A DNA stretch of 64,000 bases from positions 1,302,001 to 1,366,000 of the forward strand of contig NZ_CP013979.1 of NCBI RefSeq assembly GCF_001660485.1, written 5' to 3'. This stretch comes from Agromyces aureus. Lineage in GTDB: Bacteria; Actinomycetota; Actinomycetes; Actinomycetales; Microbacteriaceae. Positions 51,938 through 58,314 of this stretch are shown here, one piece after another; positions within the stretch are counted from its first letter, which is position 1; each line of letters opens with the position of its first letter. A model generated the notes under the pieces. It was not told where the DNA came from and ran no database searches. It saw nothing but the letters and a program-made list of their open reading frames with translations. A program made the translations under genes and the position numbers.

Positions 51938-53686
51938 GTGACCAACGACACGTTCATCGACGTCATGATGCGCACGGCAGCGACGGCGGGCGAGGCCCGG
52001 GGGATCCGGTTCTACTCGAGCCCATCGGACTCGGAGTTCAGGTCCTACGCGGCGCTCGACCGTCAGGCGCGTGCGGACGCCGCGGCCCTGATCGCTCGCG
52101 GCCACCGCGCCGGCGAGGTCGTCATCCTCGCGTTCGACCCCGGCCTCGCGTTCATCCGGGCGCTGTACGCGACCTTCTACGCCGGCATGATCGCGGCTCC
52201 CGTGCCGGTCGCCGCGATGCGGCAGCCGGGTGCGGCCCTGCGTCGCCTCGAGGCGATCATCGCCGACTCGCGCAGTGCGCTCGTGCTCACGGACGGCACC
52301 GCGCTCGCCGCGATGGGTCTCGAGCCGGGCGATACGCCCGCCGGTGCCGCCGTCACGCAGGTCTCCGCACTCGGGCTCCCGGGAGCTCTCACGGGCGATG
52401 CGGATGCCGCGGGCTGGGCGCCCCCGCCCGTCACCGCCCGCTCGCTCGCCCTCCTGCAGTACACGTCGGGCTCGACCGGAACCCCGAAGGGCGTCATGGT
52501 GAGTCACGGCAACCTCGTGGCGAACGAGGCCGCGATCACCTCCGCGGTCGGCATCACCTCCGCGTCGCGCACGATGGGGTGGCTGCCGCACTACCACGAC
52601 ATGGGGCTCGTCGGTCAGCTGCTGCAGCCGATCTTCGTCGGCGCCGACAGCGTGCTCACCTCGCCGAGCCAGTTCCTTCGACGACCCCTGCTCTGGCTGC
52701 GGCTCATCAGCGAGTACCGCTCGACCCACACCGTCGGGCCCGACTTCGCCTACGGGCTCTGCACGCGGCTCGTCACCGACGCGCAGCTCGCCGAGCTCGA
52801 CCTCTCGGCGCTCGAGGGCGTCATCACGGGCGCCGAGCCCGTGCGCGGAACGACGCTCGCCGCGTTCTCCGAGCGGTTCGCGGCTGCGGGGTTCGACGGT
52901 CGCGCGTTCGTCCCGGCGTACGGCATGGCCGAGACGACACTGCTCGTGACGGCGAGCGTGCGGTCGGAGCCGGTCGCCCCGATCCGGGTCGACGCGGCCG
53001 GGGTCGAGGCGGGCGAGCTCCACGACCCGTCGGAGGACGGCAAGGTCGCAGAACTGGTGTCGTGCGGTCCTCCGGCCGACGGGCACGAGATCGTGATCGT
53101 GGATCCGACGTCGGGGCTCCGAGCCGTCGAGGGCGCCATCGGCGAGATCCTCGTGCGCGGGCCGAGCGTCGCACAGGGGTACTGGGACCGCCCTGACGAG
53201 ACCGAGCGCACGTTCGGCGCGAGCATCGTGGGCGATCCCGTCGCGAACCGGTACCTGCGTACGGGCGATCTCGGGTCCCTCGTCGACGGCGAGCTCGTGA
53301 TCACGGGCCGCATCAAGGACCTCATCATCATCCGCGGCCGGAACCTCTACCCGCAGGACCTCGAGACCACGGCCGAGGAACTGCTGCAGTCCGGATGCCT
53401 CAGCGCGGCGTTCGAGGGGCTCTCCTCGCAGCCCGCGGTCGGGCTCGTCGCCGAGGTCGACTCGGCGCGCGTGCCGCTCGAGGAGCTCGAGCGTCTCGCC
53501 GAGGCGGTGCGCCGGAGCGTCGTCGACGAGTACACGCTGCCCGAGCTCGGGGTCGTGTTCATCCGCAAAGGCACCCTGCCGCGCACGACGAGCGGCAAGG
53601 TGCAGCGTGCGCTCACCCGGTCGTTGCTGGCCGATGAGCGCCTCGCGACCGTGCTGAGTCTCGGGTTCGATCGGACGGCGGCGTGA
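51938..53686 (+). CDS. Fatty acyl-AMP ligase (FAAL)
   Basis: The enzyme activates a fatty acid as acyl-adenylate and loads it on an acyl carrier protein. The 582-residue protein has the adenylate-forming motif YTSGSTGTPKG (about residues 178-188), GWLPHYHDMGLVG, and the FAAL-type stretch SQFLRRPLLWLRLISEYR followed by VGPDFAYGL. YGMAETTL and TGDLGSL, then GRIKDLIIIRGRNLYPQDLE, complete the set. GTG 51938 has AGGAGGGAG about 6 nt upstream. It overlaps the next gene by 4 nt. The ACP at 57206 is its likely partner. Confidence 0.92.
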   Translation: MTNDTFIDVMMRTAATAGEARGIRFYSSPSDSEFRSYAALDRQARADAAALIARGHRAGEVVILAFDPGLAFIRALYATFYAGMIAAPVPVAAMRQPGAALRRLEAIIADSRSALVLTDGTALAAMGLEPGDTPAGAAVTQVSALGLPGALTGDADAAGWAPPPVTARSLALLQYTSGSTGTPKGVMVSHGNLVANEAAITSAVGITSASRTMGWLPHYHDMGLVGQLLQPIFVGADSVLTSPSQFLRRPLLWLRLISEYRSTHTVGPDFAYGLCTRLVTDAQLAELDLSALEGVITGAEPVRGTTLAAFSERFAAAGFDGRAFVPAYGMAETTLLVTASVRSEPVAPIRVDAAGVEAGELHDPSEDGKVAELVSCGPPADGHEIVIVDPTSGLRAVEGAIGEILVRGPSVAQGYWDRPDETERTFGASIVGDPVANRYLRTGDLGSLVDGELVITGRIKDLIIIRGRNLYPQDLETTAEELLQSGCLSAAFEGLSSQPAVGLVAEVDSARVPLEELERLAEAVRRSVVDEYTLPELGVVFIRKGTLPRTTSGKVQRALTRSLLADERLATVLSLGFDRTAA

Positions 53687-57457: not shown

Positions 57458-58314
57458 TCGAGGCGCCGCACGTCCTCGCCCCGGCTGACCGGCGCGCCCG
57501 GACGTTCGGCGCCGCCGAGGGATTGTGGTGGTGCTTCGGCGAATGGATGCCGCGGGCGGCCGATCGCCCCGAGGCACCGCGTTCTGGAGACCGCCGTCCC
57601 CACGAGCGCGCGCGCCGCTTGCGCGAACGACGGGACACGGGCCGGGCGTGGGCCGAGGAACTCTCCCGCACCGCGCTCGACGGAGCCTGGCCCGGCTTCC
57701 GCCCCGACCGTCGCGGCCGGAAGCCGATGGTGAACGGCGACCACGGACTCGACGTGAGCATCTCGCACAGCGGATCCCTGATGCTCGTGGCGGTCGCACT
57801 CGGGGCGCCGGTCGGGGTCGACCTCGAGGTCGTCCCGTTCGACGCGTTCACCCGCCCGCAGCTCGTACGCCGCATGTGCTCGTCCGCTGAACTCGACGTC
57901 TTCACGAGCGTGCCCGACGGCCCGGTCCGGCGGCGGGCGCTCGCCCGCGCGTGGACCGTGAAGGAGGCGACGCTGAAGGCCCGTGGCGTCGGGCTGGCCG
58001 AGGACCCGCGAACGGTCGAGGTCGATGCGGAGTCGATCCTCGCCGAGGTCGTCGCGAGCCCCGTCGGCGTGGCAGCGGAGCCCGAAGCGTCGATCGTGCG
58101 CCTGCTCTCAACGGGCGCCGAGCTGCGGCATCCGCTCGACTGGGCCGGCCTCGACTGGGCCGACCTCGACGGGGTCGGCCTCGACTGGGCCCGAACAGCC
58201 CAACTGGCGAGCGCGCGGGCTACAGGCGTTCGCGCCATCGTCGGCCGGGGAGACGACGAAGGCCCCCGCTCTCGCGGAGGCCTTCATCTCGTGTGTCGGG
58301 GTGACAGGATTTGA
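57454..58314 (+). CDS. 4'-phosphopantetheinyl transferase (Sfp/AcpT-like)
   Basis: The enzyme moves phosphopantetheine from CoA to the ACP serine. The 286-residue protein has VSISHSGSLML, PVGVDLEVV (metal-binding Asp and Glu) and WTVKEATLKARG (WxxKEA), the three Sfp-type motifs in order. GTG 57454 overlaps the ACP stop (GTGA). The last 19 bases run into the tRNA-Pro gene on the other strand and the tail also spans that tRNA's terminator, so the natural C-terminus may have been replaced when the region was joined. Confidence 0.88.
   Translation: MIEAPHVLAPADRRARTFGAAEGLWWCFGEWMPRAADRPEAPRSGDRRPHERARRLRERRDTGRAWAEELSRTALDGAWPGFRPDRRGRKPMVNGDHGLDVSISHSGSLMLVAVALGAPVGVDLEVVPFDAFTRPQLVRRMCSSAELDVFTSVPDGPVRRRALARAWTVKEATLKARGVGLAEDPRTVEVDAESILAEVVASPVGVAAEPEASIVRLLSTGAELRHPLDWAGLDWADLDGVGLDWARTAQLASARATGVRAIVGRGDDEGPRSRGGLHLVCRGDRI
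58258..58285 (-). terminator. Terminator of the tRNA-Pro gene, inside the PPTase 3' end
   Basis: Bases 58258-58269 and 58274-58285 form a 12-bp stem with one mismatch and a TCTC loop, 10 bp after the 3' end of the tRNA on its strand. The same bases encode the last residues of the phosphopantetheinyl transferase. It may also act on transcripts of the rightward operon. Confidence 0.75.

Follow-up and report, generated by a model that had tools for sequence, protein, structure and literature searches.

What does a gene set for activating and loading a fatty acid do when it lies beside polysaccharide genes and no lipopeptide or polyketide synthetase is in sight? The question is raised by five plus-strand genes at 51938-58314 of a 64,000-nucleotide stretch of DNA from the soil bacterium Agromyces aureus (contig NZ_CP013979.1, positions 1,302,001 to 1,366,000; hereafter the window), from a genome that is a single contig of 4,373,124 bases (G000). 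The genes encode a fatty acyl-AMP ligase (FAAL), two acyl-CoA dehydrogenase-like proteins (ACAD1 and ACAD2), an acyl carrier protein (ACP) and a phosphopantetheinyl transferase (PPTase), each adjoining pair sharing 4 nt, and they adjoin a Wzx/Wzy polysaccharide locus at about 28.9 to 51.7 kb. A first-pass annotation made from the sequence alone had taken them for a self-contained module, independent of any non-ribosomal peptide synthetase (NRPS) or polyketide synthase (PKS), that might serve a polysaccharide. We consider it probable that they are the acyl-supply arm of the exopolysaccharide (EPS) locus, the outcome being a lipid-modified EPS. The lack of an assembly line and the polysaccharide link were thus upheld, but the notion that the module stands alone was not, given that a candidate consumer of its product, a protein resembling wax ester synthase/diacylglycerol acyltransferase (WS/DGAT) and missing from the first-pass account, is encoded within the same EPS locus in the window.

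Coordinates bore out the five genes and their four overlaps as first described, and Pfam and NCBIfam agreed on the families. The first product matched AMP-binding (3.6e-64), FAAL models led its NCBIfam matches, none attaining its own curated cut-off, and FadD23, FadD28 and FadD32 were among the solved structures nearest to it; by homology it is predicted to be a FAAL rather than an acyl-CoA ligase, one that would attach a free fatty acid, once activated by it, to the ACP, which we propose is primed by the PPTase. Besides the latter the genome holds two further PF01648 matches, one over the cut-off (a 131-codon frame, AcpS-like) and one below it. The PPTase frame overlaps the opposite-strand tRNA-Pro(cgg) gene (58295-58369, minus strand) by 20 nt, and the protein, with a C-terminal extension, has 286 aa, whereas those called in six Agromyces relatives have 170-240 aa. 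A tRNA-Pro gene stands at the operon end in all six of these relatives, and in loci L017 and L095 the PPTase frame ends ahead of it. Promoter and terminator scans were uninformative.

That the window holds no synthetase, as first reported, was confirmed for the genes covered by our Pfam scan (10252 to 11.7 kb and 21.5 kb to 58448), among which no NRPS or PKS was found. The A. aureus genome gave no match to the condensation domain and one full match to the ketosynthase (KS), with four partial ones covering 40-55 of 252 positions, and on these counts we reject the idea that the genome encodes an NRPS or a modular PKS at another site. Condensation domains (E <= 1e-3) were likewise absent from nine records of the other species in which the operon is EPS-linked (G191, G142 and L015-L021), making ten of ten with A. 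aureus, the one of the ten that the ketosynthase search covered. Eleven further genomes searched alike returned 8 to 44 condensation matches (44 being a lower bound), and L022, L023, L024 and L026 one or two each (best E 6e-16 to 4e-4).

An NRPS or PKS that escaped these searches, or the type III PKS reported in A. aureus, might nevertheless be what the module primes. In Streptomyces, among others, relatives of its four-gene core adjoin genes for a PKS or NRPS, and the nearest documented set is RthH-RthI-RthJ-RthK of Streptomyces scabies, a lipoinitiation set for rotihibin with the same annotated order (FAAL, ACAD, ACAD, ACP) and a proposed unsaturated acyl tail, which feeds an NRPS (PMC8552735). 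However, the published antiSMASH 3.0 results, in their accessible portion, list neither an NRPS nor a modular PKS for A. aureus, and the type III PKS does not look specific because it is also listed there for A. italicus and A. subbeticus. Set beside the domain counts, this leaves a lipopeptide or polyketide product very improbable.

We then considered the company that the operon keeps in relatives, using 80 loci from named genomes (the best 80 of 287), with gene starts outside the window taken from an open reading frame caller written for this analysis. FAAL-ACAD1-ACAD2-ACP follow one another in that order in 70 of the 80, and the arrangement is therefore not a matter of chance. The search for the five-gene order that the first-pass annotation had proposed found it, PPTase included, beside genes for a sugar transferase, a glycosyltransferase and a hexapeptide transferase in seven Agromyces (A. 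aureus among them) and three Microbacterium, so that two genera share the conserved link to polysaccharide genes. In the three Microbacterium a UDP-glucose/GDP-mannose dehydrogenase gene comes after the operon (one protein cluster, with Pfam run on the L019 copy), followed in L020 by sugar epimerase/dehydratase genes. ACAD1 was present in 7 of 60 Agromyces genomes, A. aureus included (E <= 1e-60), and in a family-wide sample in 2 of 150, both Agromyces; the glycosyltransferase starting at 48552 was present in 10 of the 60, and the first hexapeptide (left-handed beta-helix, LbH) transferase matched strongly in the same ten and weakly in only three more. Neither an NRPS or PKS dependent on this ACP in the genome nor synteny with such a cluster in close relatives was found, although distant Streptomyces-type relatives do adjoin PKS or NRPS genes.

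Context motifs, which are rough and in several loci cut short by contig ends, place a PKS- or NRPS-type gene beside at least 43 of the 80 loci. These are 36 of the 37 that we call tetronate-like, which carry a KS motif, and seven with an NRPS motif only; the remainder comprise ten with KSIII, ATP-grasp and pyridoxal phosphate (PLP) decarboxylase genes, seven EPS loci (L015 being counted by synteny and not by motif), four with DoxX and AMP-binding genes, three with WS/DGAT and 12 others (one with a KS motif, four with a short HHxxxD protein and seven unlabelled). The tetronate-like label is our own and rests on the Pfam content of one locus and on general knowledge of tetronate enzymology. L028 (6039-21631) and 36 other Streptomyces-type loci mostly carry a KS-acyltransferase-ACP PKS, a KSIII-like protein, an ACP, a 2-oxoacid dehydrogenase-type acyltransferase and a 645-aa protein with a weakly GNAT-like C-terminus (Pfam on L028, clusters for the others), an ensemble that we take to resemble tetronate assembly. 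In L030 (8254-21307) and nine like loci, named in the same manner from L030, FAAL-ACAD-ACAD-ACP precede KSIII-like, ATP-grasp and PLP decarboxylase genes, a second ACP and more ACADs; the ATP-grasp and decarboxylase pair is reminiscent of BtrJ/BtrK of butirosin. L022 (13762-18428), L035 (12684-16052), L052 and L093 hold the four-gene set near a DoxX-like protein, a second AMP-binding enzyme and a weak phosphorylase-superfamily match (Pfam on L022, clusters otherwise), the stretch fetched showing neither an NRPS nor a KS motif. The idea that the Streptomyces relatives derive from foxicin clusters was rejected; the term acyl-CoA dehydrogenase occurs nowhere in the text of the foxicin paper.

In a tree of 56 ACAD1 rows (every third tetronate-like row kept, L082 placed in that group by hand), the ten EPS-linked rows form one side of a branch with an SH-aLRT value of 94, just below the level that we starred. 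They lie inside a starred group of 15 made up of EPS, WS/DGAT and DoxX rows, next to which branches a PKS-linked Streptomyces row. No NRPS or KS motif occurred in the 12 of these 15 loci that the motif scan covered, and the other three (the window, L095 and L096) belong to genomes without a condensation domain. With its midpoint root and quick method, the tree fits a switch from assembly-line to acyltransferase use.

The acyltransferase in question scored 79.8 bits against PF03007 (curated cut-off 23.6) and is predicted to adopt the condensation/CoA-acyltransferase fold. Its HHxxxDG region reads HHVIGDA, of which the first His and last Gly vary among relatives, while the second His (H147) and D151 are invariant in 31 aligned sequences (the window's and 30 of 55 found). 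A housekeeping role in storage lipid synthesis is disfavoured because this gene is the only PF03007 match in the A. aureus genome. It was found in 10 of the 60 Agromyces, the same ten that have the glycosyltransferase starting at 48552 and the strong match to the first LbH transferase; eight of them also have FAAL, and all eight FAAL genomes fall within the ten (Fisher p = 1.8e-8, uncorrected for descent). Two Microbacteriaceae loci, L023 and L026, have the acyltransferase as gene six of the operon, sharing 4 nt with a PPTase that was named by clustering with the L019 protein and did not match that of the window. In M. allomyrinae (L024) FAAL and the acyltransferase are adjacent and divergent. 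The two are operon neighbours in VKM Ac-2854, VKM Ac-2855 and Agromyces G183. The G183 EPS locus (L119:2148-11087) has three tandem FAALs (37-39% to the window's), an ACP, a PPTase, the WS/DGAT-like gene and, last, a gene judged by eye to resemble a glycosyltransferase of family 2 (GT2), and no ACADs; three FAALs to one ACP is odd. In proteins P0156 and P0172 a GT2 and the acyltransferase are fused, and P0156 shares its strain name with P0032, one of the ACAD1 relatives. Co-occurrence, operon neighbours in relatives and the fusions point to the WS/DGAT-like protein as a candidate consumer of the acyl-ACP.

It could be argued instead that this enzyme acylates the EPS from acyl-CoA or from a housekeeping ACP, and that the FAAL operon is separate cargo of the same variable island, making another small lipid. 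Agromyces genomes G175 and G194 do hold the acyltransferase (46% identity) with no FAAL at E <= 1e-60, and in G194 the only PF01648 match falls in a 139-codon frame. Against this stand the confinement of FAAL to genomes with the acyltransferase and the operons that unite the two in VKM Ac-2854, VKM Ac-2855 and G183, and we judge separate cargo to be unlikely. The acceptor enzyme might also be the first LbH acyltransferase, which could act in the manner of LpxA or LpxD by placing the dedicated acyl-ACP's chain on a sugar: it is the acyltransferase gene nearest to the operon, is kept in ten of ten syntenic loci and shares the ten-genome distribution given above. Its Pfam likeness, however, is to ordinary hexapeptide transferases (in a scan with no specific test of LpxA/LpxD models), the FAAL-ACP run of G183 includes the WS/DGAT-like gene with the LbH gene more than 10 kb off, and the acyltransferase of the FAAL operons of VKM Ac-2854 and VKM Ac-2855 is of the WS/DGAT type; such a role thus seems improbable.

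The two dehydrogenase-like proteins of the first-pass annotation are indeed both ACADs by Pfam, but the second is probably not another active dehydrogenase. ACAD1 retains motifs of the flavin adenine dinucleotide (FAD) domain. It has an FDGN motif that is invariant among 26 aligned sequences and aligns with YEGT of solved ACADs, and has Asp403 at the position of the catalytic Glu; it is likely the catalytic acyl-ACP dehydrogenase subunit. ACAD2 has His382 at that position, where none of 16 aligned ACAD2 sequences has Glu. In the three Microbacterium ACAD2 is 351-375 aa rather than 583, lacking its N-terminal portion and almost the whole middle (FAD) domain, and in the L019 copy only the C-terminal Pfam domain was matched. 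The shortened copies (L019:11728-12783, L020:11731-12858 and L021:11698-12795) keep the C-terminal helical part and look like natural degenerate ACAD subunits. Two sequential desaturations by two active ACADs are disfavoured because of the His in ACAD2 and the loss of FAD domain in Microbacterium. In published heterotetrameric ACADs one subunit is catalytic and the other contacts the ADP-ribose part of FAD (PMC11153573). Because known enzymes pair subunits in this way, ACAD1 and ACAD2 are better read as one enzyme, a catalytic subunit with a degenerate, probably non-catalytic partner. The pair resembles the separately encoded ChsE4-ChsE5 and ChsE1-ChsE2, as described in the same source, in which one member has the catalytic base and the other helps hold FAD; unlike those, which act on steroid-CoA and keep Glu, it has Asp in ACAD1 and His in ACAD2 and a proposed acyl-ACP substrate.

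Gene content, overlaps, synteny, co-occurrence, predicted fold, key residues and the lack of any condensation domain or modular PKS found are read from sequence; each enzymatic step, the acyl length, its unsaturation, the acceptor and the ester bond we infer. In the proposed sequence the PPTase would prime Ser40 of the ACP, and a free fatty acid would be adenylated by FAAL and loaded on it. ACAD1, held by the non-catalytic ACAD2, would convert the acyl-ACP to 2-enoyl-ACP, the acyltransferase would pass the acyl group to a hydroxyl of the sugar laid down by the adjoining GT2, and the acylated unit would be flipped and then polymerised to lipid-modified EPS. This detailed version, in which an NRPS/PKS-type loading cassette has moved into a Wzx/Wzy locus, the WS/DGAT-like enzyme and GT2 add a 2-unsaturated chain to the repeat unit, and the ACAD subunits are one Asp-based and one degenerate, we put forward tentatively and with less confidence than the general link to EPS. 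Another conceivable product, given that FAAL, ACAD and ACP could yield 2-enoic acids and that cis-2-decenoyl is the proposed rotihibin tail, would be a 2-enoic acid freed from the ACP to act as a signal, or a small acyl metabolite freed likewise. Yet no thioesterase was found among the Pfam-scanned window genes, and the synteny with EPS genes and the link to the acyltransferase would go unexplained; we give such a product little credence. The GDSL hydrolase starting at 42598 could cleave acyl esters, a caveat on the thioesterase result.

Several points weigh against an acyl supply to the EPS. The window's acyltransferase lies 16.7 kb from FAAL on the opposite strand, WS/DGAT enzymes usually use acyl-CoA, and G175 and G194 have the acyltransferase without FAAL, so that it can use another donor at least there. 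Fourteen of the other 50 Agromyces also have PF03007 proteins, but from different subfamilies; none matches the window's protein at E <= 1e-10, and the figure of 10 in 60 is therefore that of the locus's own subfamily. The divergence of the three proteins is correlated over 13 loci (r 0.93-0.97), but this correlation, like the co-occurrence, would be seen in any two genes belonging to one locus or would follow from plain shared descent. As a neighbour of the operon, the first hexapeptide transferase is just as well conserved. With Asp in place of the catalytic Glu, ACAD1 cannot be assumed to be an active dehydrogenase, and among the open-access papers examined there was no report of acylated EPS from Agromyces.

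Compared by annotation, the operon differs from the rotihibin set in having a dedicated PPTase and an EPS locus beside it; the gene order of such a cassette is present, and its cognate condensation domain or modular PKS is not found in the genome. The ramoplanin and enduracidin sets show the same likeness in gene order and the same difference in feeding an NRPS. Mycobactin lipidation by MbtM/MbtL/MbtN/MbtK combines FAAL, free ACP, ACAD and an acyltransferase that uses the acyl-ACP, as proposed here, but the acceptor is an NRPS/PKS-made siderophore and MbtK a GNAT-type N-acyltransferase. Mycobacterial PapA acyltransferases work with FAALs in making acyltrehaloses, sulfolipid and phthiocerol dimycocerosates; there FAAL loads a modular PKS, whereas the ACP here is free and the setting is a Wzx/Wzy locus. 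In rhizobia, NodF/NodE/NodA likewise use a dedicated ACP to give an unsaturated acyl chain to a glycan acyltransferase, but the chain is elongated with NodE and no FAAL, NodA is unrelated to WS/DGAT, and the product is a lipo-chitooligosaccharide.

The EPS locus itself has by Pfam the initiating transferase, glycosyltransferases, Wzx flippase and Wzy polymerase expected of its type (Table 1). The pyruvyl transferase is not at the corresponding place in A. ramosus and the three Microbacterium loci. Elsewhere in the window, 11000-21000 has about 60% G+C as against 69.5% overall and adjoins a second sugar-phosphate transferase gene (10252-11724); we take it for an atypical first polysaccharide locus that was probably acquired.

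Table 1. Genes of the FAAL operon and the adjoining EPS locus (window coordinates)
Feature	Coordinates	Strand	Evidence and remarks
FAAL, 582 aa	51938..53686	+	Pfam/NCBIfam; solved FAALs among best relatives
ACAD1, likely catalytic acyl-ACP dehydrogenase subunit	53683..55461	+	Acyl-CoA_dh_M, Acyl-CoA_dh_1 (Pfam); invariant FDGN motif
ACAD2, probably non-catalytic partner subunit	55458..57209	+	Acyl-CoA_dh_M, Acyl-CoA_dh_1 (Pfam); His382 at catalytic Glu position
ACP, 83 aa, GLDS, attachment Ser40	57206..57457	+	PP-binding (PF00550) 2.7e-13; sequence
Sfp-type PPTase	57454..58314	+	ACPS (PF01648) 1.1e-12; frame enters tRNA-Pro
Polysaccharide pyruvyl transferase	50464..51705	-	PF04230; divergent from FAAL operon
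First LbH (hexapeptide) acyltransferase, second candidate consumer	49766..50326	-	PF00132
Glycosyltransferase	48552..49769	-	PF13692; 4-nt overlap with first LbH gene
Initiating sugar-phosphate transferase	46664..48184	-	PF02397 7.6e-68
Glycosyltransferase	45454..46572	-	PF00534
GT2 glycosyltransferase	44552..45508	+	PF00535
Glycosyltransferase (GT28-C-like)	43461..44486	+	PF04101
GDSL hydrolase/esterase	42598..43464	+	PF13472, PF00657
Wzx-type flippase	40976..42601	+	PF13440 1.3e-76
GT2 glycosyltransferase	40017..40877	+	PF00535
Wzy-type polymerase/O-antigen ligase family	38500..40020	+	PF04932
Glycosyltransferase, first of acyltransferase run	36112..37326	-	PF13692
GT2 glycosyltransferase	35193..36134	-	PF00535; 4-nt overlap with WS/DGAT-like gene
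WS/DGAT-like (PapA-like) acyltransferase, proposed acyl-ACP consumer	33883..35196	-	PF03007
Second LbH acyltransferase	33239..33886	-	PF00132; 4-nt overlap with WS/DGAT-like gene
Glycosyltransferase	32112..33242	-	PF13692
UDP-glucose/GDP-mannose dehydrogenase	28895..30196	-	PF03721, PF00984, PF03720

A 2025 review of FAALs treats FAAL/ACP cassettes as starters for polyketides and peptides; the word polysaccharide occurs 0 times in its main text, and its table of natural products, which includes sulfolipids and mycobactin, has no polysaccharide (PMC11837247). Nor did any paper listed in searches of the open-access literature describe FAAL-driven acylation of EPS or capsule. The present locus suggests that a known lipid-loading kit has been put to a new use, in which the acyl chain would be joined to a secreted polysaccharide and not to a peptide or polyketide. 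If this is correct, it would represent an assembly-line-free route for the fatty-acyl decoration of bacterial polysaccharides, would account for FAAL genes in genomes without an NRPS or modular PKS, and would provide a compact system (FAAL, ACP, PPTase, ACAD pair, acyltransferase and GT2) for testing acyl-ACP as a donor, and lipid-linked sugars as acceptors, of condensation-fold acyltransferases.

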